From: a virus
DNA: 64,000 nucleotides
IMG/VR virus record: IMGVR_UViG_3300035181_000949
Location: 22,693-86,692 of that record
Strand: one strand, 5' to 3'
Numbering within the stretch: the first letter of the stretch is position 1; every line of letters begins with the position of its first letter. Under the pieces are notes generated by a model. The model had not been told where the DNA came from. It worked only from the letters and a program-made list of their open reading frames with translations, and ran no database searches. The position numbers and the translations under genes were made by a program. This document shows positions 44,569 through 59,570 of this stretch, piece by piece.

Positions 44569-44875
44569 TTATTTATAGTGACAGGAAGGCAATCGGTGCT
44601 CGTTAAGAGCTTCCTTTACTTCTTGCAGTAGGTCAGGTCTGATAAAAACTACTTTACCACCAACCCAAACTTCAGTTGTTTCTGAGACGGTATGGAGCGT
44701 TTTAGTGGTGAGAACCTTAAAACCAGTCTTTTCAGGACTGTAAGCACCCACCACCGTGGGTGCGCTCCGTAGTTTTTATGAAGAAAGCTTTAATAGCTTT
44801 CTTCACATTCACCACCTCAAAGTCCGGCATCTTACTAATGACAGCTTCTGCAAGAAATTCTCTGGATGATAATAT
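44569..44875 (-). pseudogene. capsid-targeted small protein, frameshifted, with ATA in start position
   Basis: Directly after the upstream stop, with AAGAG eight bases earlier, the frame reads ILSSREFLAEAVISKMPDFE. REFLAEA lines up with the T4 internal-protein tag (M-KTYQEFIAEA) residue by residue, with ATA where ATG is expected. It continues VVNVKKAIKAFFIKTTERTH, then a one-base shift near 44752 leads into VGAYSPEKTGFKVLTTKTLH and a WVGGKVVFIRPDLLQEVKEA end at 44569. An 8-bp GCACCCAC/GTGGGTGC hairpin (44744-44763) sits at the shift. About 100 residues if intact. Confidence 0.45.
44570..44577 (-). promoter_or_regulatory. late-type promoter TATAAATA before gene 17
   Basis: Exact T4 late box on the minus strand, 56 bases upstream of the terminase start codon. 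Confidence 0.6.
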
Positions 44876-45379
44876 TTAGCTTCTCTTAAGTTGAGTCCAA
44901 ATAACAAGTGGCATGCTGGTAATAACCTGTCCGCCTTTCGTGATCGTAACAATTTCAGACTTTTGATCAAGCATGACGAGGTAATCACCAGCCTTACCAA
45001 TTTGTTCTGGTGGAAGTGGTGCTTGAGCTGGTGCTTGAGCTACGTCGGAAGGTTGCTCACCTTGAGTAGAAGCAAAGTTAGGATTCATTGACGCGTCTTC
45101 GCCACAAACAAGTTGCTTAGCAAGGTCTGCAGATTCTGCAACATACTCGTCCTCAGTAAAGTATTCCTTTACATAGCCAGTTAGTTCTGATACTGAGCAC
45201 TCAGCAGCTATGGTGTCTGTTTTGCGAATGCTCTTTACGATAGCAGCAACTGCTTGATCATATGATGCGCCCTTTGGAATATCTGCATTGCGGCACTGGT
45301 CTTCAACCGTATCCATAATTGCATTCTTCATCTGACCTTCTTTGATGGTCTTAACTTCCATTAGTTGTTTAAGTAGCAT
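44876..45379 (-). CDS. hypothetical protein of the internal-protein cluster
   Basis: 167 residues from ATG 45379 (MLLKQLMEVKTIKEGQMKN), which overlaps the upstream stop. A longer frame to 45481 is mostly overlap. Helical first half, an Ala/Pro/Gln-rich linker (QAPAQAPLPPEQ) and a beta C-terminus (AGDYLVMLDQKSEIVTITKG). The LME-V and IKE-G sequences near the start could be prohead-protease sites, but this is weaker than in its neighbours. Confidence 0.5.
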   Translation of the reverse strand: MLLKQLMEVKTIKEGQMKNAIMDTVEDQCRNADIPKGASYDQAVAAIVKSIRKTDTIAAECSVSELTGYVKEYFTEDEYVAESADLAKQLVCGEDASMNPNFASTQGEQPSDVAQAPAQAPLPPEQIGKAGDYLVMLDQKSEIVTITKGGQVITSMPLVIWTQLKRS

Positions 45380-45671
45380 ATTCTTCCTCTTTATTAACTG
45401 GAACATAGAACTCCTGTGGTGCAGGAGAACCCTTAGGTGGGTCAATTCGAATGAACTTACCCCATGTCGCTTTGAACACATTGATTATCCAAGAACCATC
45501 TGCTGCCTTTACAAAGCGGTGCAGAAGTTCTCTTGCTGTTTCAATATCTCTTTCCTTGATGGAGTCAATCTTTTGAATCGGTCCTCCGACCATCTGCATC
45601 GCAACATTATTAATGGTCGCTTGAAGAGTCTGTTCTTCAATAAACTGGCGAAATGATGGCTTATAGGACAT
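45369..45671 (-). CDS. capsid-targeted protein (SFRQFIEE tag)
   Basis: 100 residues from ATG 45671; the longer frame overlaps the polyprotein gene. It opens MSYKPSFRQFIEEQTLQATI, whose SFRQFIEE matches the tag of the other internal proteins here and the T4 internal-protein leader. The body has ERDIETARELLHRFVKAADG and KFIRIDPPKGSPAPQEFYVP. No catalytic motif. Likely packaged in the head and trimmed after the tag. Confidence 0.55.
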   Translation of the reverse strand: MSYKPSFRQFIEEQTLQATINNVAMQMVGGPIQKIDSIKERDIETARELLHRFVKAADGSWIINVFKATWGKFIRIDPPKGSPAPQEFYVPVNKEEEYAT

Positions 45672-47829
45672 AGGACACCAACTTTCCCGTAGCTTTATCC
45701 ATAAGATCCATGAGAAGAGACTTGTGCTTACGCATGAATTCATAGCACTCTTCCTTGTTGCCAGTGAAGAGAACTTTCTTAGGAAGGCCATGCTCTATGT
45801 GAGATCTGTTAATAACCTCAAGCTGAGTATCTTTTGCTTCCTTTACTGGCCCACGAATAAGCTTGATGTCCCTTGGTTGAAGTCTCACTGACTTAGCACC
45901 GAAGTTAGGTTTGCTTGACTTGTAGTCATGATCGTAGTCAACGGTGTAGGATTTTTGACCATTGGTAGTAACTACCTCGCCAATCGTTCCTTCCTTACCA
46001 ATGCAGTCCTTAGGCCCAGAGATGATCTTTACTCGCGCATTTGGCTTGTAAGGAGATATACCTTCATTAGCTTCGTCATGCACTACCTTAGCTGTCCCGA
46101 CCATATGGTTCGTGTTACCAATCTTTTCAGTATTCTTGATATTCTCTGGCTTATTCTCTTCTTCCTTGCGTTTCATCATTGCATTATAGGCAATGGAACC
46201 CTTGCGTGGCACCTTAGCTTCGTTAAATGTCATTGCAAGTTCCTTTTCCTTTATTTGTCTTTTCGGATCTTTAATCTGCTTTGCGACGGATGGTTTCTTC
46301 TCAATCTGCTTTTCAAGCACAGCAATCTTATTCTTGCGCCACTGAATCTCGGGTGAGAAGTTAGAAAGGTCTAATGCTTCTTCAATTGGCTTAAGGTGCT
46401 TAGCCTTCATACCACGCATTACAACATTTCCATTGCCAAGCTTGTGCTCACCGCCATAAACAGTTTTGTAGCTATCCTTACCACCAGCGTACTTAACAAC
46501 CTCATTTGTTTTTGGATTTACTTCATACCAATCGTCGTCGTTAAAGCTACCCTTAAACGCTTCTGAAACCTTCTCACCCTTATGCTTGCTGTTCTTGTTG
46601 AGCTCGATAGCATAATCAGTTTCACGCTGGCCATATACTTCAGCATCATTCTTCTCGGCCCACTTGATGAGAGCATCCTCATTCTTGAAGGTACGCCGCC
46701 ACGGAGTACGCTTCATACCACGAATTCCATAAGCTTCAATCATGTCCTTTGCAGCTTCAGAAAGAACAACACCCTTCTCTTTGTCTTGACTCCACACGCC
46801 ATAGCAACGGTCTTCTCCTGGAACTTCAGCAGAGATAGTATCCTTACCACCTTCCATGCGACCCTTGAATTTAATCTTCTTAGCTTGTCGTGGATATGAA
46901 TTCAAAACTGCTTGCTTCCAATCTTCAAAGTCAGTATAAGCTTGGGCTTCCGTCATCCCAACTGATTCTTTAATAGAACCCCCATTGTGTTCTGCATACT
47001 CAATAGCTTCTGCTGGAGTAAAGAATGGACCTTCAATTTCCAAACCACGACGAGAGCTATAGTCTTTATGAATCCAGTTCATAACGTCTTGTGGCTTCAA
47101 GTAGCTCATGTATGAAGTGCCCCAATGATAGTCGGGCTTACCTTGATACTTCTCTTCACGCCACTTACCACCATTTGTCTTAGTGACTTTACCAATCCAT
47201 GAGCGGTGCTCATCTTCATAACAGAATGCTACATAGAAAGTATTTGGGTCTTCATCATCTTCATCATCTTCATAATCTTCATCATCTTCATAATCTTCAT
47301 CATCTTCCTCCATTAGATCAGCATTCTTATTAGCACCCTCTTTCTTCTTATCTTCCATGTAATTAATGGTGGCATCATTCAGTTCGGAAGCTTCTTTTAT
47401 GATTGTTAATTCTGTTGTAGAACCTTGATCGAAAATATTTTTAACAGAACGACCCCCGATTCTCATCCCACCATTATATTTTGGATCAGCAATAATAGTG
47501 CCTATTTTTTCGTCACCGTCTTCTACCCAACGAATCTTCATTCCTGGTTTTAATTTTGATAAAGGAACGATTTCTTCTTTGACTGCACCTTTTAGCTTAC
47601 CATTGTTGTATGATGCAATAGTTTCATCGTCATCATACCAATCAGATGCATAAATGCGACCTGTGTTCTTATCCTTATTGATGTATTGAACTACGCCTTG
47701 ATCTGCACTGACCTTCTTAGCTTTCTGGTGAGCCTTTAGTAAGTCTGCTTGCAGCTGAGCTGACTTTGCTACTGCTGATTCTTCTGAAATAGAAAGAAGT
47801 TGCTGTGTAAGTTTCATTAGTGTCTCCAA
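45661..47829 (-). CDS. probable internal head polyprotein with repeated protease-like sites
   Basis: 722 residues, starting MKLTQQLLSISEESAV from the second Met. It consists of short domains separated by IKE-A, SIKE-S, MTE-A, LSE-A, VSE-A, IEE-A, FNE-A and VKE-A junctions (after residues 146, 288, 294, 358, 423, 484, 537 and 664). These fit the T4 gp21 prohead-protease rule (hydrophobic-x-Glu then a small residue). Domains include SH3/KOW-like units (KPGMKIRWVEDGDEKIGTII; RVKIISGPKDCIGKEGTIGE) and a very acidic stretch at 174-193. I infer cleavage into several internal peptides during head maturation. A late-type box precedes it. Confidence 0.6.
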   Translation of the reverse strand: METLMKLTQQLLSISEESAVAKSAQLQADLLKAHQKAKKVSADQGVVQYINKDKNTGRIYASDWYDDDETIASYNNGKLKGAVKEEIVPLSKLKPGMKIRWVEDGDEKIGTIIADPKYNGGMRIGGRSVKNIFDQGSTTELTIIKEASELNDATINYMEDKKKEGANKNADLMEEDDEDYEDDEDYEDDEDDEDPNTFYVAFCYEDEHRSWIGKVTKTNGGKWREEKYQGKPDYHWGTSYMSYLKPQDVMNWIHKDYSSRRGLEIEGPFFTPAEAIEYAEHNGGSIKESVGMTEAQAYTDFEDWKQAVLNSYPRQAKKIKFKGRMEGGKDTISAEVPGEDRCYGVWSQDKEKGVVLSEAAKDMIEAYGIRGMKRTPWRRTFKNEDALIKWAEKNDAEVYGQRETDYAIELNKNSKHKGEKVSEAFKGSFNDDDWYEVNPKTNEVVKYAGGKDSYKTVYGGEHKLGNGNVVMRGMKAKHLKPIEEALDLSNFSPEIQWRKNKIAVLEKQIEKKPSVAKQIKDPKRQIKEKELAMTFNEAKVPRKGSIAYNAMMKRKEEENKPENIKNTEKIGNTNHMVGTAKVVHDEANEGISPYKPNARVKIISGPKDCIGKEGTIGEVVTTNGQKSYTVDYDHDYKSSKPNFGAKSVRLQPRDIKLIRGPVKEAKDTQLEVINRSHIEHGLPKKVLFTGNKEECYEFMRKHKSLLMDLMDKATGKLVSYVL

Positions 47830-47872: not shown

Positions 47873-48517
47873 TCAGATTGATAGAAAGAAGTCTTGAAAC
47901 TCAGGGCTTTCTGCAGTAGGTCCATTATGATTGAAAGCATAAAACTTACCACATCTGAACATTATTTCGTTATTAGACTTTATGCATCCAACAATGTCCT
48001 CACTATCTTTCCAATGCCATTTTTCCATCTTATCTTTCATAATTTCTACAGCAAGCTTATTACTCTTTTCAATTTCAGGATTGTCATATGTTGGATCATT
48101 ACGACCACCGCACCGGTTGTAGAAACCAGTCATATCATGAGCATCATCGTCAGTTGCACAAAGCCATTCAAAATTGCCTATTGGAAAAATGATAGTAAGG
48201 TCTTTACGACTTGCACTGTAGATTGCTGCATCATTAGGACTACCTGAGCAGAACATCCAGTCTCTAGCCTTTACGCCAAACTTGTCTTCGAAGTATTTGT
48301 TAATACCGTCATGCATAGTGAATGAAGAATCTCTGGGTCCTTCACGTTCTTTCCAAGTTTCTACTTGATAGTCTTTCGGTATATTGTGGGTGCCGCGATA
48401 TAGCATCTGTCGGCCATGCGTACCCTTTAGCATGGCAAGATATACAGAACACTCTTTCTTGAATTTTTCTAAGTCAAACTCAGATGCTTCGCTTAAGAAT
48501 TGTTTAAAAGAGATCAT
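47873..48517 (-). CDS. capsid-targeted ADP-ribosyltransferase-like protein
   Basis: 214 residues from ATG 48517, overlapping the previous stop as ATGA. Tag MISFKQFLSE then Ala (cleavage site). Then MLYRGTH (Arg41, ART block I-like), DWMFCSGSPNDAAIYSAS (block II S-x-S-like) and LTIIFPIGNFEWLCATDDD, an order shared with the proteins at 50563 and 55188. T4 Alt is a packaged ADP-ribosyltransferase with R-S-E motifs; this could be a smaller analogue. The catalytic Glu is not certain. Confidence 0.5.
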   Translation of the reverse strand: MISFKQFLSEASEFDLEKFKKECSVYLAMLKGTHGRQMLYRGTHNIPKDYQVETWKEREGPRDSSFTMHDGINKYFEDKFGVKARDWMFCSGSPNDAAIYSASRKDLTIIFPIGNFEWLCATDDDAHDMTGFYNRCGGRNDPTYDNPEIEKSNKLAVEIMKDKMEKWHWKDSEDIVGCIKSNNEIMFRCGKFYAFNHNGPTAESPEFQDFFLSI

Positions 48518-49248
48518 TCTCGGTACCATCCATTGCAAAGAAGTTCTAACTCTTTTCTTGACATTATTTCTGGAGCAAGATACTTGGTCTTCTTGCTATT
48601 CATTTCTTCTAGAACCCTACGGCCAGTAAGGTTAGATACTTTCTTAGAATAGAAGTCTTGCACTTCATTGAATAATTTTTTCATAGCAGCATCATCTAGT
48701 ACGCCAGAATCATTATTGATTTCTCTAAAGAATGAAACTTGACTTTTTAATTCGGCTGCATTTTCAGCGCTCTTCTTAAAATTAGCTTCGATAAATGACA
48801 CATCAACAGCTCTACCAATTTTTTCTTCTCGTTCCTTTGCTCGCTTCTTTGCCGTTTCTAGTGATGTAGTCACATTAATAATGCCGATATCATAGCCCAC
48901 CGATTTTAAAATGCCAATACGTCTATGGATATTTTTCAAATTACTAGATGTACCATCGATGAATAGTGGTAATACCCCGTCCAGATAATTCATTAACATA
49001 GTCTTTGTTATGCGGTGTGCAGAGTCTTTAAAATCATCCCATGTTTCAGAATTAATTTTCTTATCAATTTTTGCAGACATAAACTCTGAAGCTTTGTCAG
49101 TATTCACAATCTTTGGGGATACCACCCCATTTAGTTGTGCAGTAGTGTAAGACTTACCAGATCCAGGTATTCCAATAACAAAGATAGCCTTTAGGATGCC
49201 CTTGTCCGAACTAGATTCTAATAAATAATTTTTGAAAGATAACTGCAC
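48514..49248 (-). CDS. capsid-targeted P-loop kinase (zeta-toxin/Pnk-like)
   Basis: 244 residues. Tag-like start MQLSFKNYLLE then Ser. P-loop GIPGSGKS at 26-33 (AIFVIGIPGSGKSYTTAQLN), VNTDKASEFM as in zeta-toxin/kinase motif 2, LPLFIDGTSSNLKNI, and an arginine/lysine-rich lid (ETAKKRAKEREEKIGRAV). The family phosphorylates nucleic-acid ends or small molecules. With the N-terminal tag it would be a virion-delivered kinase. Preceded by a TATAAATA box at 49324-49331. Confidence 0.6.
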   Translation of the reverse strand: MQLSFKNYLLESSSDKGILKAIFVIGIPGSGKSYTTAQLNGVVSPKIVNTDKASEFMSAKIDKKINSETWDDFKDSAHRITKTMLMNYLDGVLPLFIDGTSSNLKNIHRRIGILKSVGYDIGIINVTTSLETAKKRAKEREEKIGRAVDVSFIEANFKKSAENAAELKSQVSFFREINNDSGVLDDAAMKKLFNEVQDFYSKKVSNLTGRRVLEEMNSKKTKYLAPEIMSRKELELLCNGWYRE

Positions 49249-49323: not shown

Positions 49324-49331
49324 TATTTATA
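49324..49331 (-). promoter_or_regulatory. late-type promoter TATAAATA
   Basis: Exact T4 late box on the minus strand at the end of the kinase-like gene, 75 bases before the P-loop kinase gene; an ATTCTCTAT/ATAGAGAAT-like dyad lies between. Confidence 0.5.
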
Positions 49332-50001
49332 TTACCCAAGGATCAACGATGACGGGAATACCGTCATTACGATGCATGAAATTGCCGCCATGAAGATCAA
49401 ACCTATAACCATCGTCATAAGCTATTCTAGATAGATCACCAATAGTTGTTAGAAGAAGTCTAAAATCCTTTTCTCCTAGAAGAACCATTAATTCTTCAAT
49501 TGCTTCCGCTTGTGATCTTAAAAGATGAATGGGGGATTCATCCTCATTGTCTAGCTCGTGCACGTGCATTACAATGTCATTGATTGTCTTTGCTTTATTA
49601 TGTGATCGATCAATCTCTTCTGAGATATTTTCAAGAGCGTTAGCAAGATCGTCTGGAAGCTTCTGTAATTTTTCCATTCTGATCTGAAGATACATTTCTT
49701 CTTTCCACTTAAATGATTCCCAACCATCAAATTTTGGAAGAAATTCATTAGTGCTATTCTTTTTACAATAAGCAGCCCAGGCTTTAAACATGTATTGATC
49801 TTTAGAAAATCCAGCATCATCGCCACCATGACCAGTGCCAAATACTTTCAGCACCCTACCAGTCTTTGGTTCAAGATATGCAGATTGATCAACACCTTTG
49901 CCAATATACTTATAGCCCTTCTTTTCTAAGGATTTTCTGATACCACTGGCTGTGTTTGACCACTCTGTTATGAATTCTTTGAATCTCATTTTTAATCTCA
50001 T
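49327..50001 (-). CDS. capsid-targeted protein-kinase-like protein
   Basis: 224 residues. Tag MRFKEFITE (from the second Met). GKGVDQSAYLEPKTGRVLKV looks like a kinase glycine loop and ATP-binding Lys52. Near the end, FDLHGGNFMHRNDGIPVIVD has the catalytic-loop D202-x-H-x-x-N207 and a D-P (221-222) in place of DFG, as in aminoglycoside/atypical kinases. The tag implies packaging and injection. Target unknown. Frame overlaps the GNAT gene upstream by four bases. Confidence 0.6.
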   Translation of the reverse strand: MRLKMRFKEFITEWSNTASGIRKSLEKKGYKYIGKGVDQSAYLEPKTGRVLKVFGTGHGGDDAGFSKDQYMFKAWAAYCKKNSTNEFLPKFDGWESFKWKEEMYLQIRMEKLQKLPDDLANALENISEEIDRSHNKAKTINDIVMHVHELDNEDESPIHLLRSQAEAIEELMVLLGEKDFRLLLTTIGDLSRIAYDDGYRFDLHGGNFMHRNDGIPVIVDPWVI

Positions 50002-50570
50002 TTTGAATGATCCTTATTCCAGAATGTCTTACCCATTCCTGTTTGAAGTTTAGAAGGTGCTACGTCATTGCCGCACTCTCGTGCGAGCTTATACATTTCA
50101 GTAGCAATGCCTTTACGTCTGTGAGCTGGTTGCACAGAAAGATCAAGAGCCTCTAGATGATCACCATGCTTCTCGAAATTTACCCAGCCACACTCAGTGC
50201 CGCCTGCTGTTTTAGCTACTATTCTAAACTGTTCGCTCTTGTGTGCTGGCTTAGCATTCATCTTTACCCAACCACAAGTAGCAACTAGCTTGTACTTACC
50301 ATCGAGGATTTCCTTTTCTTTCTTGAAGTCAGTGTAGAAAATCTTGTCATTAACTTCTTCCTCGATCTTGATTTTCTTCTGCTGTTTGGTCGCGTCGTCA
50401 ATACTATCAAACTTGTCGTCCTTAGTCAAAATAGCTTTGCTTGAGAACCAAACCTCTCGATCAAGAGGAAGCTTCTTACCAAACTCAACAAGCTTAAGGC
50501 TTAAGTTTTGCTGGTCCCGCTTCTTAAGGACAGCATCAGCGAGGAATTCTTTAAAGGAAATATTACTCAT
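49998..50570 (-). CDS. capsid-targeted GNAT acetyltransferase-like protein
   Basis: 190 residues from ATG 50570 (AGGGA upstream): MSNISFKEFLADAVLKK, a tag with Asp in place of Glu at the cleavage position. The C-terminal half has LDLSVQPAHRRKGIATEMYK, the GNAT acetyl-CoA loop (Q/RxxGxG/A: RRKGIA), after a beta-rich CGWVNFEKHGDHLEAL. It could modify a host protein after injection. The middle domain (FRIVAKTAGG) is unassigned. Confidence 0.6.
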   Translation of the reverse strand: MSNISFKEFLADAVLKKRDQQNLSLKLVEFGKKLPLDREVWFSSKAILTKDDKFDSIDDATKQQKKIKIEEEVNDKIFYTDFKKEKEILDGKYKLVATCGWVKMNAKPAHKSEQFRIVAKTAGGTECGWVNFEKHGDHLEALDLSVQPAHRRKGIATEMYKLARECGNDVAPSKLQTGMGKTFWNKDHSK

Positions 50571-51504
50571 TTGACTGGTCCCTGCGTAGCTGTGCATCAT
50601 AGCGTTCTGCAGCCTTCTTAAGTTCCAACTTCATATACTTGTCGAATGATTTATGCACTGGGAATCCGCTCTTCTTCAAATCATAAAGCATATCAGCAAA
50701 GGTGGCCAGTGGCATTGATACTGCCACGCCCGAGAACCATGCTTCAACCCCCAATTGATTGTGAGGTGGAATGTCATCACCCGCTGTAAGCAGTCTAATG
50801 TCCATTGAGGTAGGAGAGAACAACGCATTGGCGAGAGTTGTCATCTTTTTATCATCAAGACAGCGTGAGAAGAGCTTAAGGCATTCAGTGTAGTTAAAGC
50901 AATTACCAGTTTCACTGTCACTTATAGCTTTTATAATTTTGTCCGGGGCAACATTAGTTAAAAAATCATCAAGCACCTGCATATCATCAAATACCTTATT
51001 GCCACGCAGTCCTAGTTCTCTCAGAAACATTTCAATTTCATTACTCACCTCCTGCACCCCAATTCCTGATTGGACAAGTGGGGTGTGCAATGATTGTGAA
51101 AAAATATCAGGATGTTTAAGTGCTGCTATTTTTGTTCCATCTATCGGAATCAAAACATTTACAGTGCCATAGTTTTCAGCTGTTGTTAATCCAGTTGAAC
51201 AGATAAGTGAATTCTTTCTCTTTGGATAATCCTTAAAGCCCGCTGAATTATCCATTAGCAGCTGGTAAATATTGTTTGTATCTCTAGATGTTCGGTGCGC
51301 TTTAGTAGTGTCGATTATTTTATAACCATCTGCTTCGTTCTTTCCACCAGACAGCCCACGAAACAAGATGCTACCATTCTTAATGGACTCAAGTCCAGAC
51401 TTAAACTGGGCATTAAGAAGCGTTACCAGACCCTCGAGGCCAATGTGTTCGACATCCCACTTCTTTATGGCTGTCTCAGACAGGAATTGCTTGAACGAAA
51501 TCAT
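50563..51504 (-). CDS. capsid-targeted ADP-ribosyltransferase-like protein
   Basis: 313 residues. Tag MISFKQFLSE then Thr; start overlaps the gp16-like stop as ATGA. SILFRGLSGG (Arg49), SLICSTGLTTAENYGTVNV (block II STG), then VLIPIDGTK give the same block order as the proteins at 47873 and 55188. The second half is helical and unique. An ADP-ribosyltransferase-like fold is the best reading, at moderate confidence. Confidence 0.5.
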   Translation of the reverse strand: MISFKQFLSETAIKKWDVEHIGLEGLVTLLNAQFKSGLESIKNGSILFRGLSGGKNEADGYKIIDTTKAHRTSRDTNNIYQLLMDNSAGFKDYPKRKNSLICSTGLTTAENYGTVNVLIPIDGTKIAALKHPDIFSQSLHTPLVQSGIGVQEVSNEIEMFLRELGLRGNKVFDDMQVLDDFLTNVAPDKIIKAISDSETGNCFNYTECLKLFSRCLDDKKMTTLANALFSPTSMDIRLLTAGDDIPPHNQLGVEAWFSGVAVSMPLATFADMLYDLKKSGFPVHKSFDKYMKLELKKAAERYDAQLRRDQSNE

Positions 51505-51968
51505 TTTACCTCTTTACTAATTCCATCAATATTGATCATACGTAATACTTCTTCCCTGGAGGCAATCACCAAGTTGTTGGTTGTCTTACCTCCACCTGGT
51601 GAATAAGGTGCGAACACTTGGTTTGCTCTCTTACGATCTGACTTTACCTTAGCGCGGCTGTTCACTGCTGCTAAAGCTATATTTAAGTAATTGGCAGCAA
51701 CTTCTGCATTTCTGGCTGCATATCGAGGTTCAATGATCTCGGTATAAGCTGTTTGTTGGTGGAATGTTTGGAGTGCAGTCTCATAGACCAAGTCGAGACG
51801 TTCTTCAATGACCTTGTCATCCTCATCCTTGTGATCTACTGGAGCTTCAGTAAGCTGTCCTTGCGGAACTTGTTCAGCTACCGTATATTCCTGCGCGATG
51901 TCAATAGTACCATCTTCCATTCCAAAGACGGATTCGAGTGGGTGGGACATTGATGTAACAGGTTTCAT
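51501..51968 (-). CDS. 16: terminase small subunit (gp16-like)
   Basis: 155 residues. An acidic N-terminal part is followed by a helical core: EERLDLVYETALQTFHQQTA, IIEPRYAARNAEVAANYLNI, ALAAVNSRAK. This is the layout of T4-like gp16, with a central coiled-coil that forms a ring to recognise DNA for packaging. Sequence identity to T4 gp16 is weak by eye. Its place close to gp17 and the gp4-like genes supports it. Confidence 0.55.
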   Translation of the reverse strand: MKPVTSMSHPLESVFGMEDGTIDIAQEYTVAEQVPQGQLTEAPVDHKDEDDKVIEERLDLVYETALQTFHQQTAYTEIIEPRYAARNAEVAANYLNIALAAVNSRAKVKSDRKRANQVFAPYSPGGGKTTNNLVIASREEVLRMINIDGISKEVK

Positions 51969-52450
51969 TTTCTCATACCTCTAGTTCTAATGGTTCTATT
52001 TCCTGGTCTCGCAGGATTCGTTCTTGCTGTCTGCTTCTTGTTAATAAGACCAGCGAGGTCCTTCTCAGTATAGACTCTGAATCCCCATCCTTGTGTCTTA
52101 GCAAATGCTGCAGCTGCCTGCCACTTTGCCGTGTTCTGTAGGACCATTGCCTTATCGTAAAGCGTTCTAGCCTTTTCAGCAAGAGCTTCTTTCAATGGCT
52201 TGATCTCCACTATTAACACAAAGCCATTAGCATACTCAACTACAAAGTCTGGCCAGTAAAGCGTGTTGCGCTTCTTGATTGGATTGTAGTACGTGATGCT
52301 AAATGGTTCAGAAGACCAGGACTTTACGGCTGGTGATCTTTCAAGAGCTCCAGCGTAAGCTGTTTCCCAGGATGACCTGAATGTAGGAATCTTATGACCT
52401 GAGTATTTAGCGAACCGTGGATCGATTGACTGTCTGGTTACGTTAGCCAC
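51965..52450 (-). CDS. gp4-like head-completion protein, PD-(D/E)xK fold, copy 2
   Basis: 161 residues. TFRSSWETAYAGALERSPAV, WSSEPFSITYYNPIKKRNTL, YWPDFVVEYANGFVLIVEIK give Glu (SSWE), Asp (PDF) and ExK, the layout of T4 gp4/gp50-type head completion proteins, which have a TnsA-like nuclease fold. It is a diverged paralogue of the gene just upstream and overlaps it by eight bases. Basic C-terminus (RTNPARPGNRTIRTRGMRK). Confidence 0.65.
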   Translation of the reverse strand: MANVTRQSIDPRFAKYSGHKIPTFRSSWETAYAGALERSPAVKSWSSEPFSITYYNPIKKRNTLYWPDFVVEYANGFVLIVEIKPLKEALAEKARTLYDKAMVLQNTAKWQAAAAFAKTQGWGFRVYTEKDLAGLINKKQTARTNPARPGNRTIRTRGMRK

Positions 52451-52919
52451 TTACTAGCTCCTTCTTCTTTCGAACCTTCGGAGGTTTAGTCTGCTTAACG
52501 CCTTGGTGGTAGATGCTGTGCTCTGTAATTACCCTGAACGTCCAGCCTCTTGATTCACAGAAGATATTGGCTGCCTTCCACTTTGCTTCATTTACTTCAA
52601 GTGCCGCCTTTGATCGTTCTGACTTAGCATACTGCTCTACTGATTCATGACGTGGTTTTACCTCTACGACTTCCTTCTTAGTAGCTCCAGTCTTATCGAC
52701 GTACTCAACAAAGAAGTCAGGCCAGTACTCATGAACTCTACTATCTACGGGGCTAAGGTATGGTATAACCTGCTCTTCTGATCCCCATCTGATAACAGCT
52801 GAAGATGAGTCAAAGAATTTCATTACTGTTAGCTCCCATGAAGAGCGGGCAAATATTTTTTCAATGTCTCCAACGTACTTGGAAGCATTCTTAGGAATGA
52901 ATCGTGCTCTAAAGGCCAT
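52443..52919 (-). CDS. 4: gp4-like head-completion protein, PD-(D/E)xK fold, copy 1
   Basis: 158 residues. FARSSWELTVMKFFDSSSAV, IRWGSEEQVIPYLSPVDSRV, HEYWPDFFVEY and KEVVEVKPRHES closely follow T4 gp4. In T4 this protein acts at the packaging vertex of the filled head. The start overlaps the stop of the tube-initiator-like gene by one base. Two tandem copies are unusual; either could be the functional gp4. Confidence 0.75.
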   Translation of the reverse strand: MAFRARFIPKNASKYVGDIEKIFARSSWELTVMKFFDSSSAVIRWGSEEQVIPYLSPVDSRVHEYWPDFFVEYVDKTGATKKEVVEVKPRHESVEQYAKSERSKAALEVNEAKWKAANIFCESRGWTFRVITEHSIYHQGVKQTKPPKVRKKKELVSG

Positions 52920-54199
52920 TATTCTGAACTGCTAATTACCTGTGAAGGTGGTGTTGTAACTCCAGCATTGTCAGTGACAAGAGTAGGAGATGGGCGGGCA
53001 ATAGCTTGGGATACACCACTTGCTGCATTAGCAAGAGTCTTTGCCGTTGCTTGTCCAAGGGTACCACTTACTGAAGAGATTGTAGTTGATAAAGCTCCAC
53101 CCGCAACATCACCAAACATTCCGCGAAGAGCATTGCTAACAGTCGTCTGAGCCATTCTAGAACCTTGGCGCGCGAGGATGTCAATAAATGGATTGCGATT
53201 GTTACCAGCAGCAGAACCAGACTGGCCTCTAATGATGTTGGCTTCAGTAGCGCTGTAGCCATTCAATATGTCACCACCCGGGAATGTGTTGCCCAGCACC
53301 GTTGTTGCTCCCATACCATCACCACCAAGGGTGATGTGAAGAGCATCATAGTCGAATGAGGCTGAAATTGTTGCAGCTTCAGAACCACTTTCATGGTCTT
53401 GGTTTTGAGTGTTGTACTCTGCTAGACGCGGATTTGTGAAAATGAAGCTGTTAACGCGCACCAAGTTTGGAAGACTTGAGGCAGTCTTATCTGACATGTT
53501 CACGTAAAACTGGTCGATTGTCAATGACTTTAAGATGTCCTTTCGACCACGATTACCATTTGCAATAGCACCGCGATTACCAGTGTCAAGCCCTTGATAG
53601 TTTGGATTAAAGGCGAAGCCATGGTTTTCCATGTTGTCATCATCTTGCTGTTTGTTGCGTGTGATTGGGCTGAAGAGCATCATGTACGCATTAACGAAAG
53701 CTAAAGCATGATTCGCAACGTCATCATAAAAGACCAAGTTAAGGTTTTCATGGGCGATGCCCTTAAGAATCTTCGTTTTGAAGTTGTACATATTCACTTC
53801 TTCATAGTCAAACTTTACCTTTGGCAGATCGATTGACTTAACTACGAACGTAAGGTCTCGGCTGATGTCATTGACATTGAAGCCAAGTGATGAAGCCATT
53901 TGCGCTGGCTCTGGGTGGAATTTAAATTCAACCTTGAAGAGGAACTTATTCTTAGGATCAAAGCCACCAGAAAAGTTTGTAAGAGCTGAAGCGTATGGAG
54001 TAGGATCCCAGACCCCAGTCTGAACATTTTTAATGACAGATGCAGCGTCATTCGGGCCAGCTATTTGAGTAGAAGCAGTCGTGAATATTTTTCCAAGCTC
54101 ACCACTAACCTGATTTTCAACTGCAGCCCCGAACTGGCGGTACGCTTCTGACTCGAGAGCTACGCCCGTGCTACCAATTAAACCTGAGATATCTGACAT
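52919..54199 (-). CDS. baseplate tail-tube initiator-like protein (gp54/gp48-type)
   Basis: 426 residues. The central half (FLFKVEFKFHPEPAQMA, LTFVVKSIDLPKVKFDYEEV, MYNFKTKILKGIAHENLNLV) has the tube-fold pattern shared by gp19, gp48 and gp54: an FxVxF strand, K-x-IDLP and an NxYNxK segment. Large flexible Gly/Ala/Ser-rich C-terminus. Located next to gp19, so a tube-base or tube-initiator role is likely; which T4 counterpart is uncertain. Confidence 0.6.
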   Translation of the reverse strand: MSDISGLIGSTGVALESEAYRQFGAAVENQVSGELGKIFTTASTQIAGPNDAASVIKNVQTGVWDPTPYASALTNFSGGFDPKNKFLFKVEFKFHPEPAQMASSLGFNVNDISRDLTFVVKSIDLPKVKFDYEEVNMYNFKTKILKGIAHENLNLVFYDDVANHALAFVNAYMMLFSPITRNKQQDDDNMENHGFAFNPNYQGLDTGNRGAIANGNRGRKDILKSLTIDQFYVNMSDKTASSLPNLVRVNSFIFTNPRLAEYNTQNQDHESGSEAATISASFDYDALHITLGGDGMGATTVLGNTFPGGDILNGYSATEANIIRGQSGSAAGNNRNPFIDILARQGSRMAQTTVSNALRGMFGDVAGGALSTTISSVSGTLGQATAKTLANAASGVSQAIARPSPTLVTDNAGVTTPPSQVISSSE

Positions 54200-54505: not shown

Positions 54506-55096
54506 TTAAAGGTTACCAGCCAATGCTGTACCGTATCCTTGACCGGTAAGCTCTTGACGCGCATGGTCAAAACGAATCGTAAGATCAATTGTTAATGCTT
54601 CGCTTGAACCGTAGTCAAGGCCACTATAGCTAGCCTTCTGCAAGAAGCAACCTTCAAGCTTCCACGTTTCAACAACACCTTCGTTACCATCCAACTGTTG
54701 AAGGATAGTACCAAACTTGTAGTCAGAACCAGTAGCTGCTGAATTCAACCATGTGCCTGCAAGGTCGGCGCCAATCAAGCGTTGTTGAGTTTCAAGTTGT
54801 CCTTGGACAGCGTAAGCTGCAAGACCAGTAATATCGTCTTCAACCGTAATGTTAATAGCTTCCCATGAGTGCTTGCCAGCAACGTAAGCCGTGCTGTTAT
54901 AGCGCTCAATTTTTATTTCTTCAAATGACAAGTTAGGTCTGTCCATCTTGACAGCTTGACGAGTAATTTCGCGAGATGAAGCACCTGAAACTAAGCGTGC
55001 AAGATTCACGAAGGTGACCTGCCATCTATATTGTTGCTTAGGATGCAACACGCCAAAGCCGGCACCCGGAATCCCCATTTGACTTAATGTTGCCAT
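54506..55096 (-). CDS. 19: tail tube protein (gp19)
   Basis: 196 residues. GVLHPKQQYRWQVTFVNL, VKMDRPNLSFEEIKIERYNS, YVAGKHSWEAINITVEDDIT, ETWKLEGCFLQKASYSGLDY and DLTIRFDHARQEL follow T4 gp19 in order and length. It polymerises as hexamer rings into the inner tail tube. A late-type box at 55145-55152 and an AAGGAGATA leader precede it. Confidence 0.88.
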   Translation of the reverse strand: MATLSQMGIPGAGFGVLHPKQQYRWQVTFVNLARLVSGASSREITRQAVKMDRPNLSFEEIKIERYNSTAYVAGKHSWEAINITVEDDITGLAAYAVQGQLETQQRLIGADLAGTWLNSAATGSDYKFGTILQQLDGNEGVVETWKLEGCFLQKASYSGLDYGSSEALTIDLTIRFDHARQELTGQGYGTALAGNL

Positions 55097-55187: not shown

Positions 55188-56063
55188 CTAAGCGTTCTTT
55201 ATAAGCCGAAGAAGGTACTCGTAGAGCCCCTTAGCATCACCTTTTAATTCAGCGGGTGTATCAAATGAATGATAGTATCTGGTTCCATAGTCCGTTTGAT
55301 CCTGCTTAAGGATTTCATACACTTTAGACATCGGAATAGCCCAGTATCCAGGAAAGTCAAAGAAACCGATCTCGTGCTTTAAATTGATAGCGTGTTCAAG
55401 GTCTCTTGATTCAATATAGTTATGCTTAAAGAGTGACTTGGTAGCCATAACTATTTCTGCTCTAAAGGTTTTCAGATCAATCTTTTCCATTTTCTCATCT
55501 GAAACACTGTGTTCTAAAACATCGGTGATATATTCTTGAACTTCGGGACTGCCCTTGATGAACTCGTCAACTGTAAATTTCTTAGCAAAATCTTCAAACA
55601 TTGACTGAACGAGGTACACGTCAACGGATCCACCTAGCTCTTTAGCTATTTCACTGAACATGGAAGAGGATTCCTCGTATGAGTCAGCGTACTCTGGAGA
55701 GTAGGTGAAGCTAAAATCACCAGCAGGGAAGATAAAGTGGGTGGGTCCGTAAGCCTTCGCCATCGCCTGTGAACCAGTCGCGTAAAGACAGTTTGCGCGA
55801 ATAGACTTATAGCCAAAAGCAAGTTGATAGCCCATGTTGAACATGAAGTTGAATCCTGGACCAGAATCCTTGGGGGCTCTATTCTTTGAGGCTGGTGAGA
55901 AGGTGGCTTGATCTTCGCTTATACCGCGAATTCCTCTTAAAAGTGGGGAATCCCCAGACTCGTTAAGAAAGTACTTGCACTCGTTCTTAATACGGGGCAG
56001 ACTCACGAATAGAGGAACCACAGCCGCGCTCTCGTTAAGGAATTCTTTAAAGCTTGGTCTCAT
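55188..56063 (-). CDS. capsid-targeted ADP-ribosyltransferase-like protein
   Basis: 291 residues. Tag MRPSFKEFLNE then Ser; start overlaps the previous stop as ATGA. SPLLRGIRG (Arg43), RANCLYATGSQAMAKAYGP (block II-like) and FIFPAGDFSFTYSPEYAD follow the block order of the proteins at 47873 and 50563. The C-terminal half is helical. Inferred to be a virion-packed enzyme related in role to T4 Alt. Confidence 0.5.
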   Translation of the reverse strand: MRPSFKEFLNESAAVVPLFVSLPRIKNECKYFLNESGDSPLLRGIRGISEDQATFSPASKNRAPKDSGPGFNFMFNMGYQLAFGYKSIRANCLYATGSQAMAKAYGPTHFIFPAGDFSFTYSPEYADSYEESSSMFSEIAKELGGSVDVYLVQSMFEDFAKKFTVDEFIKGSPEVQEYITDVLEHSVSDEKMEKIDLKTFRAEIVMATKSLFKHNYIESRDLEHAINLKHEIGFFDFPGYWAIPMSKVYEILKQDQTDYGTRYYHSFDTPAELKGDAKGLYEYLLRLIKNA

Positions 56064-56416
56064 GTCAAGTTTTCTAATTTATATTTTGCACGGTAGATAA
56101 TAGAAAGAACATTATCCCATTCATTTAAGAGATTAGTGTCTGCTGGATTAAATACTGAGCGTGAAGATTCTGCCCATATAGCTAGTTCACGAATAAATGT
56201 CTGTGCATCTTGTGTTTGAAACACGAGTGCAGTCGTCGCTGGGATATTTAGAATACCATACTTGCCTTGGTAAAGTTCAGCAACAGTGTCAGCACCCTCA
56301 AGCAAGCCTTCATACAAATCATTTAGAGCTAAATGCTGTGCAAAAGAACGCGTGCGAAGATGAAGCATATGTGCTAGATCACGAGCTGCAAATAGTTGTG
56401 CTATAAGATTTTCCAT
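56060..56416 (-). CDS. hypothetical helical protein (ferritin-like pattern)
   Basis: 118 residues from ATG 56416; the longer frame overlaps gp18. ARDLAHMLHLRTRSFAQHLA, LNDLYEGLLEGADTVAELYQ and GKYGILNIP give H...H and long helices like small Dps/ferritin-like phage proteins of unknown role. No good Shine-Dalgarno; the start lies just after a 14-bp hairpin containing GGAGG. Confidence 0.5.
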   Translation of the reverse strand: MENLIAQLFAARDLAHMLHLRTRSFAQHLALNDLYEGLLEGADTVAELYQGKYGILNIPATTALVFQTQDAQTFIRELAIWAESSRSVFNPADTNLLNEWDNVLSIIYRAKYKLENLT

Positions 56417-56423
56417 AGGATTT

Positions 56424-56451
56424 GGGGGGAGGACCTTAAGGTCCTCCCCCC
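56424..56451 (-). terminator. 14-bp perfect palindrome after gp18
   Basis: GGGGGGAGGACCTT and AAGGTCCTCCCCCC are exact complements with no loop bases, giving a very stable hairpin directly after the sheath stop. No T run follows, so it may be an mRNA-stability or attenuator structure instead. Confidence 0.6.
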
Positions 56452-56456
56452 CTCTA

Positions 56457-58298
56457 TTAAGGCATTGAAGCGCCAGTAGAAAGAACGCGGATTGGAATGT
56501 AGATAAATTCAGCTGCATCCATTGGCTTAAGAGCAACGTCCATAATCAGCTGGTTATTGTCGATCACTGTTGGAGTGTTGTTTGATTCGTCGCAAAGAGT
56601 TACGAAGTCATACAAGCCATGCTTAGCCATGATGTCATTCAAGAATCCATCAGCGACTGACTTAAGGTTGTCGCGAGTGATCTTGTCGTTAGGTTCGAAG
56701 ACGAATGGGAAAGCACCCTTGCGAAGAGCTCTCTTGATGTACATAAGCAAGCGCATTACATTAACACGATCAAGAGCGGAAGCTGCACCATAGGAAGTCT
56801 TCTGGCCCCAAACAATCAAACCGTTTCCTGGGAAGAATACAATTGGGTTGATGTTCTTGAAGTACTCGTACAAGTTATCACGCTGACCTTGGTTAAGGTT
56901 GGTCTCAATGAATGTTGTAGCTGTTCCAAGAGTTCCTGAAACGTATCCAACAGAAGTAACACCAGTAACTGAACCACGGCGGACACCAGCTGGAGCAAAC
57001 CAAACATATGCCTGATTGTCGCTGTATGCGTAGGTGCGAACTGCAATCCCGGATGGAGCAACAACAATATTTGTACCATCAAGATTAGATGCCATGCCCC
57101 ATAGGTAGTAGTAAGCTGCATTAGATGATGTAACGCGTTCTGTAGTAAGTGCCCATGTAGCAGCTTGTTCAGGAGTCTTATTGAGAGGAACATCAGCAAT
57201 AACAAACGCTTCATCATTGATGGAGTTTGAAAGAGCTACAAGTTCATTAACAACTTCTGGGTAACCTGGGGCAAGGATCAAGTTATACTCATAAATTTCA
57301 GAACGTACTTCTTGGTTGCTGTTAATTTCAGCAGCCAGCGCTGTAGCGATAGCAACTCTCTTAGCAGCATCATTAGCACCAAGAGGAGCCGTAAGGTTAA
57401 CCATCACAAGTGAAACGGTGAAATCATCTCCGGCAACAAATGGAACTGTTCCAGCACTAATCAAGAAGTTAATGAAGTTGTTGTCATAAGGAACACCAAC
57501 TTGACCCATGATAGATGGACCAGATACTGTACCTGTTACTGAGAAGGTTGTTGCACTGGTAAAAGTGATAACCCATGTTTCAACTGTAGCGTTAACGTCA
57601 GCTACTAAGCCAGTCATCGTACCATTGCCAGTTCCGGTGAAGCTGTTTGGCGTATAAACGATGTCGAAGGTAAAGTAGTCATCTGCTGTAAAGGCAACTG
57701 AACCAGAAGTAATTGTGAACGTAACCTTTGAAGACGTGAATAAGGTGTTAACAGTACCAGTACCAATGATGCCAGTGTCAGAACCAGTTACGGTGTAACC
57801 AGTTGGGCTTGTGAACACCACGTTGATTGTTTCAGGCTTAACTTGGCTGGATGATACATCAGCGCCAGTCATGATACCATTGCCAGCACCCACACGAGTA
57901 GTTGGACCAGCGTGCGGGATACCAACTGCAATAAACGTTTCTGCAGCATCTGTCAAGTCGACGTTTGCGCGAACAACGTAAGCGCGATTTGCCAAACCAA
58001 GGAACTGGTTAAGAGCAAAAAGCCCGTACTCATTACGAGCATCGCCATGGAATTGGTTACCGGCAGAATCAGCTCTGAACGATGGAATACCATAAAGCTG
58101 CGTGCTCTGACCAATAGAGGTTACTGTACGAACAACCGAGTGCTCTGTAGTACCCGATGCAATAGTAAGACCATTTGGTTGAACTTTATTCTTTTCAGTT
58201 GCAACGAAGAACAATGGAACTGTTGATGCCGCTGCTGGGATGAAGAATGATTCATCGATAACTGTAACTGACACGCCTGGGGAAACAAGGGTTGCCAT
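56457..58298 (-). CDS. 18: contractile tail sheath protein (gp18)
   Basis: 613 residues. The N-terminal VSPGVSVTVIDESFF is the sheath strand-swap arm; TVPLFFVATEKNKVQ follows. The middle (about 160-340) contains two beta domains. The C-terminal third (ERVTSSNAAYYYLWGMAS, GIAVRTYAYSDNQAYVWFAP, NPIVFFPGNGLIVWGQKT, VNVMRLLMYIKRALRKGAFP) is the highly conserved sheath core, ending YIPIRVLSTGASMP. Slightly shorter than T4 gp18 (659). Confidence 0.93.
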   Translation of the reverse strand: MATLVSPGVSVTVIDESFFIPAAASTVPLFFVATEKNKVQPNGLTIASGTTEHSVVRTVTSIGQSTQLYGIPSFRADSAGNQFHGDARNEYGLFALNQFLGLANRAYVVRANVDLTDAAETFIAVGIPHAGPTTRVGAGNGIMTGADVSSSQVKPETINVVFTSPTGYTVTGSDTGIIGTGTVNTLFTSSKVTFTITSGSVAFTADDYFTFDIVYTPNSFTGTGNGTMTGLVADVNATVETWVITFTSATTFSVTGTVSGPSIMGQVGVPYDNNFINFLISAGTVPFVAGDDFTVSLVMVNLTAPLGANDAAKRVAIATALAAEINSNQEVRSEIYEYNLILAPGYPEVVNELVALSNSINDEAFVIADVPLNKTPEQAATWALTTERVTSSNAAYYYLWGMASNLDGTNIVVAPSGIAVRTYAYSDNQAYVWFAPAGVRRGSVTGVTSVGYVSGTLGTATTFIETNLNQGQRDNLYEYFKNINPIVFFPGNGLIVWGQKTSYGAASALDRVNVMRLLMYIKRALRKGAFPFVFEPNDKITRDNLKSVADGFLNDIMAKHGLYDFVTLCDESNNTPTVIDNNQLIMDVALKPMDAAEFIYIPIRVLSTGASMP

Positions 58299-58371
58299 AT
58301 TTAATATCTCCTTAATATATCTCTTTTAATGCATCTTGGGTTGTTGAGCTGCATTTGCGTTTGTGACTATG

Positions 58372-58379
58372 TATTTATG
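58372..58379 (-). promoter_or_regulatory. late-type promoter box CATAAATA before gp18
   Basis: Minus-strand CATAAATA in the gap between gp15-like and sheath genes. Confidence 0.5.
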
Positions 58380-58416
58380 TTCTTTCCAGGTTTCGGGGCC
58401 AGAACAACAGCTTCTT

Positions 58417-59163
58417 TTAACCTGTTATATCGATTGTTCCATACTCTGGACCGTTGGTGAAGGGAACAAGGTTACCCTCGTCATCGTACTCGTTGATCTG
58501 GAAGCTTGACAGGTCACCGATTCTAAGCGTAATTTTTCGAACCACATCATCCTTCATATCAACTGGGGCTGAAAGCCAGATGTTTGTCGCAAAGGTAAGT
58601 GTCCACATGAGAAGACGGCGTTCACCACCAGGAGGATAGTTTTCCTCATTGTTGATTCCAGTGAGCTCAACTGAGGCTATCTTCGTCCAGTCAAGAGCAG
58701 CGTCAGAGGTTTGGATCTGAAGAATGGGATCAAACAGAACAAGAAGCTGCTCCAAAATTTGGTGCATTTGCTGCGTGTTAGATGCAATTATAGCAAGCTC
58801 TGTTGTCATGATGTATGGGATAGGCATAACACGAGTAACAGTCTTCAGGTCAGCAGGATAGACACCACCAGCAGGTAGAAATGTTCTACGATCGACTACG
58901 CCGATACCCTTGCGCTGCGATGAGATTTCAAGACCAGCCATATTAGCAACCATTGACGGCACCGTGAATGGTTTGTTCTGCGTGTTACCAGCCTGAATAG
59001 CCGCAACTACCCTATCCCTGCTTCCAATGGCAATAGGAACGGAAATGAACTCTTCTTCAGCACACTCGCCCTTACCTGTCTTTACAGTAAGACCTGCGAA
59101 GATGTTGCAGAACTGAAGGAGGTAGGAACGAAGTTGACCTTCGTAAAAGTAGCTGGTGATCAT
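58417..59163 (-). CDS. 15: tail terminator/sheath stabiliser (gp15)
   Basis: 248 residues. MITSYFYEGQLRSYLLQFCN with an early NIFAGLTVKT and FISVPIAIGSRDRVVA match T4 gp15 FYNSSFRRYATLMGDLFSNI...FIRVPITYASKEH. RVMPIPYIMTTELAIIASNT, QILEQLLVLFDPILQIQTSD and RRLLMWTLTFATNIWLSAPV also line up. In T4 it caps the tail for head joining. Coupled by ATGA to the CTS-tagged gene upstream. Confidence 0.85.
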   Translation of the reverse strand: MITSYFYEGQLRSYLLQFCNIFAGLTVKTGKGECAEEEFISVPIAIGSRDRVVAAIQAGNTQNKPFTVPSMVANMAGLEISSQRKGIGVVDRRTFLPAGGVYPADLKTVTRVMPIPYIMTTELAIIASNTQQMHQILEQLLVLFDPILQIQTSDAALDWTKIASVELTGINNEENYPPGGERRLLMWTLTFATNIWLSAPVDMKDDVVRKITLRIGDLSSFQINEYDDEGNLVPFTNGPEYGTIDITG

Positions 59164-59570
59164 ATTCCGTATGCTCGTTTAAAGTTTGTTTTATCTTGTT
59201 CCGTAAGGTTTGTAGTATCACAAGTGTACGTTCCATCCTTCAGTTTGATGGCTGTAGAGGTCCAGAATGCGTGAGCTGGTTTGCTATCACCTGGTGGAGT
59301 TTCTCTGAAGCTCGTTGAAACTGGAATAGAAGCTTCTTTAAGCTCATCAGGAATCTCGAGCTTTATATCTCGCCACAGTGTGCCATCAGCTCTTTTCTTC
59401 ATCAGCTTTGGATCACGGTGCTTTGGCACGAAGAGCTGTTGCATAATGTTCTTTTCAGACAGGCATCGCTGAATGTCCCTTAGATGAGCATAACCTAACG
59501 CATAGTCATCTACCCACGAAGGTTCAACTACCTTCGTGGCTTCGTTTAGGAAATTTTTAAAGATTATCAT
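59160..59570 (-). CDS. capsid-targeted protein of unknown function
   Basis: 136 residues. Tag MIIFKNFLNE then Ala. Body: PSWVDDYALGYAHLRDIQRC, QLFVPKHRDPKLMKKRADGT, LWRDIKLEIPDELKEASIPV, STSFRETPPGDSKPAHAFWT. The STS and AFWTSTA segments recall toxin-like folds but no catalytic set is clear. It is inserted between the gp14-position gene and gp15 with ATGA overlaps on both sides. Confidence 0.5.
   Translation of the reverse strand: MIIFKNFLNEATKVVEPSWVDDYALGYAHLRDIQRCLSEKNIMQQLFVPKHRDPKLMKKRADGTLWRDIKLEIPDELKEASIPVSTSFRETPPGDSKPAHAFWTSTAIKLKDGTYTCDTTNLTEQDKTNFKRAYGI

Follow-up and report, generated by a model that had tools for sequence, protein, structure and literature searches.

The 64,000-nucleotide stretch of viral DNA described here (the window) comprises bases 22,693-86,692 of the 86,692-base virus record IMGVR_UViG_3300035181_000949 and carries, among its tail genes, eight genes whose products begin with variants of one short N-terminal leader that resembles the capsid-targeting sequence of the phage T4 internal proteins. 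The window is 99.998% identical, in reversed orientation, to bases 153,383-217,383 of G001, a 239,441-base IMG/VR contig, and megablast gave no match of the region to named phages.

The leader and its distribution in the genome

All eight genes lie on the minus strand, and each product, as a preliminary description of the region had proposed, starts with the leader, defined here as the pattern [FY][KR]x[FY][LI]x[ED] beginning at residue 4-7 from an in-frame start. Named by their lower coordinates, the genes encode proteins that start MSYKPSFRQFIEEQ (45369), MISFKQFLSEA (47873), MQLSFKNYLLES (48514, from a GTG start codon), MRLKMRFKEFITEW (49327), MSNISFKEFLADA (49998), MISFKQFLSET (50563), MRPSFKEFLNES (55188) and MIIFKNFLNEA (59160). 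The terminal glutamate ascribed to the leader is found in seven of the eight, as the end of an [LI]xE motif, with aspartate in its place in 49998. Across G001, the pattern stands at 9 of 312 called open reading frame (ORF) starts, and no instance of it is seen among 879 internal methionines; as it was drawn from these same proteins the start count is partly circular, whereas the internal-methionine background is not. The 45369 gene is masked by an overlapping ORF in the G001 calling, and counting it gives ten tagged genes (10/313 starts against internal methionines, Fisher p = 1.4e-6), eight of which fall within one segment, picked post hoc, that holds 38 of the 328 ORFs (p = 6e-7). The leader is genuine, its recurrence far exceeding what chance would give. 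Where window genes have a leader residue in common, they use the same codon for it in only 59 of 116 cases, which counts against the leader DNA having been copied recently and favours selection at the peptide level.

The two tagged genes outside the window lie at G001 6348-7229 (MISFKQFLME) and 24716-25930 (MISFKQFITE). Both bodies resemble nucleotidyltransferases by eye, a reading for which no supporting family match was found. The gene at G001 7243, after the first of these, matches phrog_12810 (E 7.3e-10) and its product starts MKVKELFEA.

The proteins behind the leader

The bodies had been described as unrelated to each other, which does not hold for three of them, since 47873, 50563 and 55188 match the shared PHROG families 11975, 12810 and 15932. 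These families are annotated as of unknown function, and their description as ADP-ribosyltransferase (ART)-like is our own. The 214-residue product of 47873..48517 (leader MISFKQFLSE at 48517-48488) matches phrog_11975 (E 2.1e-17) and phrog_15932 (2.4e-13); the 313-residue product of 50563..51504 (leader MISFKQFLSE at 51504-51475) matches positions 10-251 of phrog_12810 (E 5.5e-22) and phrog_11975 (2.2e-5); and the 291-residue product of 55188..56063 (leader MRPSFKEFLNE at 56063-56031) matches phrog_11975 (E 2.9e-20), also falls in phrog_15932, and has matches in the Agrobacterium phage Atu_ph07 down to E 1.9e-15. At full length, phrog_12810 corresponds to an Atu_ph07 protein that fuses ART-like and kinase parts. 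In an alignment of 14 members of the ART-like family, four residues never vary (R49, R96, P120 and E254), and those just after R96 are mostly S/T, so that the family shows the R, S/T, E order of the ART superfamily, residues for which we infer a catalytic role. An AlphaFold model of 50563 has a predicted local distance difference test (pLDDT) score of 84.9, with only residues 1-13, the leader, under 50; R49 lies within a strand of the model, and E254 opens a second strand. The three bodies are ART-like by sequence, with NAD transfer as a predicted activity; none was named by Pfam, NCBIfam or PADLOC.

Two further bodies resemble kinases. That of 48514..49248 (244 residues; leader MQLSFKNYLLE at 49248-49216) is a zeta-toxin-like P-loop kinase, matching Pfam Zeta_toxin (Zeta toxin / AAA_33 kinase; E 1.3e-13, 51.2 bits against a gathering cut-off of 22.3) and positions 261-417 of phrog_12810 (E 3.2e-24); a relative in L226 begins MISFKQFISES. 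The protein-kinase-like product of 49327..50001 (224 residues; leader MRLKMRFKEFITE at 50001-49963) matches phrog_15752 (protein kinase, inhibitor of host transcription) over residues 19-221 (E 6.8e-13), and its GKG, LKxFG, DLHGxN and VDP stretches are kept in three orthologues; its AlphaFold2 (AF2) model is of low confidence (pLDDT 59). We take phrog_15752 to stand for the T7 gp0.7 protein kinase, which is synthesised after entry, whereas 49327 bears a packaging-type tag. Sequence searches of solved structures with the ART profile and with the 49327 kinase gave nothing better than E 0.55.

The product of 49998..50570 (190 residues; leader MSNISFKEFLAD at 50570-50535, with the aspartate at the cleavage position) is a GNAT acetyltransferase, matching Acetyltransf_1 above its Pfam cut-off (5.5e-5) and Acetyltransf_7 below it (4e-5). 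Two other proteins that look GNAT-like by eye (7757-8443 and 11339-11998) start MKLDEIK and MKLQEIK, which is not the dialect of the tag. The remaining two tagged bodies are without family assignment: that of 45369..45671 (100 residues; leader MSYKPSFRQFIEE at 45671-45633), and that of 59160..59570 (136 residues; leader MIIFKNFLNE at 59570-59541), for which Pfam and PHROG profile searches returned no family match.

The damaged gene at 44569..44875, also on the minus strand, was said to begin with the leader as well. A leader-like stretch, SSREFLAEA, is indeed present at 44.87 kb; it has no ATG, GTG or TTG ahead of it in its frame, which differs from that of 44569-44754. The latter product matches weakly the C-terminal end of phrog_12810 (positions 210-252, E 0.006). 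With its remains spread over three frames and its middle gone, the gene is, as judged from these pieces, a decayed member of the ART-like family. A related contig, L119, encodes a 95-residue tagged protein (MHSKISFKQYLVE) beside two tagged genes that are ART-like by eye, among eight leader-bearing ORFs partly unlike those of the window. Given this partly different set and the decayed gene, the tagged cargo seems to turn over.

Gene neighbourhood and head genes

The tagged genes are scattered among tail genes, as first described: genes for head closure, tail tube, sheath and sheath stabilizer and another virion gene alternate with them. Also on the minus strand, these neighbours comprise the N-terminal part of the terminase large subunit (43630..44514; phrog_5989, E 5.4e-56), a head-closure protein (51965..52450; phrog_218, E 2.6e-32), two tail tube proteins (52919..54199 and 54506..55096; phrog_4542, E 3.5e-12 and 1.8e-42), the gene upstream of 55188 (56060..56536; phrog_858, starvation-inducible transcriptional regulator, E 8.8e-19), the tail sheath (56457..58298; phrog_10581, E 1.1e-158), the tail sheath stabilizer (58417..59163; phrog_227, E 2.2e-38) and, upstream of 59160, a virion structural protein (59567..61471; phrog_11591, E 4.9e-23). 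The statement that most tagged genes are coupled by ATGA to virion genes stands in part. Such coupling is found in five of the eight (47873, 49327, 50563, 55188 and 59160, the last on both sides, to the sheath stabilizer and the structural protein), and the partner of 55188 is the regulator-family gene; the overlap with the preceding gene is 8 bases for 49998 and 11 for 45369, and a 78-base gap precedes 48514.

Some 3-9 kb past the end of the window's record, G001 encodes a portal, an S77 prohead protease and a major head protein (PHROG families phrog_207, phrog_138 and phrog_213). The protease, at G001 146325-146762, is of the gp21 type (PF03420, E 4.4e-25), and the machinery for T4-type tag trimming is therefore present. 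A second series of similar N-termini, MLLKQL, MKLTQQLLSISEE, MLIKQLLCINEA and MLIHQLTTIQEA, occurs at window positions 44876-45379 and 45661-47814 and at G001 146882 and 150856; it resembles the start of T4 gp22 (MLKEQLIAEA), and these are perhaps leaders of core proteins.

Several genes of the window appear, by eye, to be interrupted. The terminase large subunit is split (42030-44514), its N-terminal ORF having an intein-like end and its C-terminal ORF (42030-43169) an intein-like start, with no long ORF spanning both halves. The large subunit of ribonucleotide reductase (24125-27669) is apparently split as well, into an ORF with an intein-like end and one with an intein-like start, separated by a GIY-YIG-like ORF (25207-26013) in what resembles a fractured gene. 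A UvsW-like helicase gene (29442-32221) consists of overlapping ORFs for an intein-like N part, an endonuclease-like protein and an intein-like C part, and two short overlapping ORFs between virion genes (61473-62209) resemble pieces of a homing endonuclease.

The leader in other phages

The preliminary description had suggested looking for the leader motif in related genomes, where it was found before many unrelated bodies. Two complementary IMG/VR searches, one by body and one by tag, bear on this. A DNA-motif search for the ART-like body, with the tag excluded, returned 10 stretches with 12 ORFs, 11 of them with a complete 5' end, and the leader stands at the start of all 11, in one case (MISFKQFINGD) without the glutamate; these 11 amount to 7 distinct proteins, 3 of which are Atu_ph07's own. 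The leader alone, searched as FK[QE]FLxE, was found in at least 120 stretches, and a control with identical codons in scrambled order in 0. Details of this search refer to the 80 stretches listed. With the leader removed, 136 proteins (80 from those stretches and 56 from five genomes) were clustered by body at E 1e-4, giving 43 clusters. The largest holds 45 proteins linked to the ART-like/kinase family; single scanned members of the clusters of 27, 12 and 6 match, respectively, phrog_1742, the S-adenosylmethionine (SAM) lyase family PF23780 (E 6e-16) and phrog_14802, a virion structural protein; and among the smaller clusters are weak, sub-cut-off matches to GNAT, HAD and methyltransferase families. 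Among 26 contigs (from 23 of the 80 listed leader loci and from 3 of the 10 ART-motif stretches), 15 encode the S77 protease; the contigs are partial, and its absence from the remaining 11 carries little weight.

What had been taken for a single motif is instead a family of phage-specific dialects. Relatives of the ART-like proteins occur in Atu_ph07, in the Salicola phage SCTP-2 and in the uncultured phage LR756508, with 13, 9 and 15 matches to PHROG 11975 (4 in G001) and 16, 3 and 11 to PHROG 12810 (again 4 in G001), some places being in both. Atu_ph07 has, by our own count, eleven ART-family genes in a tandem array (coding sequences (CDS) 53-63), of which ten products start M[KR]WxxLxE and one MRLFQLLE; the leaders of SCTP-2 and LR756508 are MK[IV]xx[IL]LxE and [LF]KxLLxE. 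Strict versions of these patterns occur at 13 of 835 ORF starts in Atu_ph07, 9 of 544 in SCTP-2 and 22 of 718 in LR756508, and at 0 of 1721, 0 of 1562 and 0 of 1116 internal methionines, respectively. Applied across seven genomes (ORFs of at least 60 residues, two patterns slightly narrowed), the dialect patterns gave a near-diagonal table, with 9, 13, 8, 21 and 4 matches at home, the only one outside a home genome being a match to the G001 pattern in Atu_ph07; each dialect having been derived from its own home genome, it is the emptiness elsewhere that is informative. Homologous ART-family bodies thus carry four dialects, SFKxFLxE, MRWxQLxE, MKIxxLLxE and MKLKxLLxE. Local dialects also extend to other bodies, namely a zeta/AAA_33 kinase in LR756508 and, in Atu_ph07, a protein with a weak, below cut-off match to ART-PolyVal. 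A further LR756508 protein with the local dialect looks kinase-like by eye, without a family match.

A loose grammar fitting all dialects was tried as a search tool and rejected, as it matches 38 of 45 ART-family places but also 458 of 2274 other ORFs, leaving only the dialects specific. In three of its seven misses (Atu 304756, Atu 47218 and SCTP-2 210095) the leader is at a start below the profile match, and in a fourth, SCTP-2 366228, no leader was seen by eye.

Tagged proteins in the virions of other phages

Mass spectrometry (MS) of purified virions of the Synechococcus phage S-CREM2 detected 52 of its 219 proteins (PMC10665884), and this phage also encodes a prohead protease. A broad leader pattern, written before the N-termini were seen, is present on 5 of the 52 detected and 4 of the 167 undetected proteins (p 0.037), and a narrow one, fixed after the list was seen, on 5 of 52 and 0 of 167 (p 6.5e-4). 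The motif might have proved equally frequent in non-virion proteins; in S-CREM2 it is commoner in virion proteins by both patterns, an outcome in favour of the tag reading. The five tagged virion proteins are a SAM hydrolase, an APH/ChoK-like kinase, a cytidylyltransferase and two unknowns; no tail or baseplate protein of the 52 detected bears the broad pattern. In a Cas9-like virion nuclease of S-CREM2 (L229 7704-10313), residues 18-27 read RFASFMAEAA and resemble the leader; the annotated start of this protein is perhaps wrong.

Homologues of the S-CREM2 cytidylyltransferase bear similar starts. The S-SCSM1 NMNAT (MKSFLQFLKEA) and the S-SZBM1 cytidylyltransferase (MRFRQFIIEA) are both reported in virions by MS, and the homologues of P-SSM2 and S-CRM01 start MKSFSQFLTE and MKLFNQFFKE. 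A protein of this kind, which bears the leader in cyanophages, is also encoded at G001 130653-131360 (cytidylyltransferase/NMNAT-like, phrog_3041, E 3e-14) and starts MDINEQLEIQTLFEDLA, outside the phage's own dialect. For Atu_ph07, 131 proteins were identified in virions by MS, and 29 of these are encoded within CDS 31-76 (PMC6102473), an interval that contains the ART array, though the count of 29 of 46 does not by itself place array proteins among the virion proteins.

Comparison with known systems

The T4 capsid-targeting sequence is an N-terminal propeptide of 10-19 residues; ten N-terminal residues of IPIII are enough to bring about packaging, the tag alone packages a foreign protein, residues 4 and 7 govern targeting and 8 and 10 processing, and aspartate at position 10 blocks cutting but not targeting (PMC9026906). 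All three T4 internal proteins had been credited with the start MKTYQEFIAEA, which is correct for IPII and IPIII, whereas IPI begins MKTFKEFTSTTT. The leader described here shares with IPII and IPIII its N-terminal position, its length of about ten residues, hydrophobic residues at 4, 7 and 8, glutamate at 10 and an encoded S77 (gp21) protease; 47873, 50563 and 59160 are numbered exactly as MKTYQEFIAE, and the other five tags are shifted by 1-3 residues. T4 likewise packages an ART, Alt, which with IPI is similar in role. The window phage differs in its tag sequence, in its number of tagged genes, no fewer than ten in G001 with several ART-like ones, kinase-like ones and a GNAT among them, and in the phage-specific dialects found elsewhere; and while cutting of the T4 tag is known, cleavage in the window phage is predicted from its genes. 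The 54-residue product of T4 gene 61.1 (L027 18966-19130), which starts MKTFKEFIKE, has a leader resembling the capsid-targeting one, and we know of no description of it as an internal protein.

With the virion enzymes of T4-like cyanophages such as S-CREM2 there is a likeness both in the leader and in the functional classes it precedes, though the S-CREM2 kinase and the window kinase have only a short D-H-G-G-N stretch in common. The accessible text of the S-CREM2 paper names no shared leader (PMC10665884). Phage ARTs, GNATs and other effectors have been described as head-packaged and proposed to act early (PMC9503650, PMC7824862); in the available portions of that work packaging is inferred from fusion to MuF or portal proteins, from polyvalent proteins and from gene neighbourhood, whereas the window phage has separate genes with a common small tag. 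That T4-like phages could take on various additional proteins by means of the T4 tag has already been suggested in a review (PMC9026906). In the titles and opening abstract lines searched, which took in no subscription journals and few preprints, we found no account of tag dialects, of tagged ART-type arrays or of a match between tag and proteomics, nor a tagged effector set outside T4-type phages. The T4 tag and packaged ARTs are thus already known, and the dialects, the tagged ART-type arrays and the fit with virion proteomics, of which we found no description, are apparently new.

A probable capsid-targeting role

The leader is reused on unrelated bodies, in a phage that has the protease and head genes, and we consider it likely that it is a T4-type capsid-targeting tag loading interchangeable effectors into the head, as originally suggested; the support is indirect and comes from these genes, the T4-like spacing, the many bodies and the cyanophage virion data. 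In such a mechanism, two hydrophobic or aromatic side chains three residues apart (F4 and F7 in MISFKQFLSE) would attach to the scaffold core while the head grows, trapping any protein behind the leader in the head together with the core; the gp21-type prohead protease would then cut after L/I-x-E, and the released protein would enter the host alongside the DNA. Virion presence, cleavage, delivery and enzyme targets are thus predicted for the window phage by analogy. The cargo would be a kit of likely early-acting modifying enzymes, comprising the three ART-like proteins, the two kinase-like ones (protein-kinase-like and zeta-toxin-like) and the acetyltransferase, together with the two bodies without assignment. 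Because aspartate at position 10 blocks cutting but not targeting in T4, the GNAT 49998, with its FLAD, is predicted to be packaged uncut.

Several observations weigh against this reading, beyond the low specificity of the loose grammar and the home-genome origin of each dialect. One tag ends in aspartate, and the coupled partner of 55188 falls in a regulator rather than a virion PHROG. The ART fold of the cargo is weakly supported: Foldseek with the ART-like model gave no match at E <= 0.001, and the best VIA match was 2aua, presumably of an ADP-ribosylation-type fold (Z 5.5, 126 aligned, 4.0 A), followed by the anti-CRISPR 6kyf (Z 4.1), which we take to be AcrIF11, an ART; among the 26 entries listed, OspC3 and CopC (presumably ADP-riboxanases), ExoS (presumably an ART) and cholera toxin reached Z 2.1-2.5, and unrelated folds up to 2.9. 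T4's own pattern has a background, being found at 3 of 265 ORF starts and 2 of 657 internal methionines. PA5oct, a jumbo phage with MS data, has no recurrent leader (15 pattern matches in 441 ORFs, two of the narrow kind), and the PA5oct homologue of the L102 leader family, which is marked ESI-MS/MS (electrospray tandem mass spectrometry), starts MKSFRDYY, with the full tag absent. The virion MS data for tagged proteins come from other phages (S-CREM2, S-SCSM1 and S-SZBM1), and the S-CREM2 authors caution that non-structural virion proteins may be carry-over (PMC10665884).

Three other explanations deserve consideration. The tagged proteins might be core or scaffold parts that build the head, their enzyme-like bodies being coincidental or inactive, in keeping with the head-assembly defects of T4 IPIII mutants (PMC9026906) and with the two window bodies that lack an enzyme match; we think this very unlikely, as six of the eight bodies match enzyme families or the family that we assign as ART-like, with its invariant R and E, and tagged SAM hydrolase, kinase and NMNAT-type enzymes have been reported in other phages' virions. 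The position of several tagged genes between those for sheath, tube and sheath stabilizer could instead suggest a leader that directs its cargo to the baseplate or tail tube, much as effectors are loaded in contractile injection systems. Yet the tag has the L/I-x-E of prohead protease sites, T4's similar tag is head-bound, and the broad pattern is missing from the tail and baseplate proteins of the S-CREM2 virion, which together make a tail destination very unlikely. How far the tagged genes of S-CREM2 lie from its tail genes is no argument in this matter, since the genome is circularly permuted.

Least credible, in our view, is that the leader involves no targeting and reflects mere inherited paralogy or translation-start context, such as coupled starts or codon choice. 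Three window members and the remnant do form one family, and five of eight starts are ATGA-coupled; against this stand the 43 body clusters obtained with the leader removed, the sharing of codons at only 59 of 116 residues, the empty scrambled-order search and the different dialects on homologous bodies in different phages.

Implications

If the leader is a capsid-targeting tag, each lineage's variant presumably fits the core and protease of that lineage. We lean, by a little, towards a more general proposal, illustrated by the four dialects on homologous ART-family bodies, in which large myoviruses use a private address code, a lineage dialect read by the phage's own core and protease, and effector genes moving between them are re-tagged to suit the local dialect. 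If this is true, a genome's dialect would list its injected proteins, and co-infecting phages would be unable to load each other's cargo. The proteins that phages inject are mostly unknown, and finding them usually means analysing purified virions by proteomics; with a tag that is genome-specific and readable, the task would become a sequence search, which would flag enzymes of host takeover or anti-defence (ART-like proteins, kinases, SAM lyases and acetyltransferases) among the 'hypothetical proteins' of giant phages. Short tags of this kind, perhaps orthogonal ones, would also be of use for packing proteins into phage heads.

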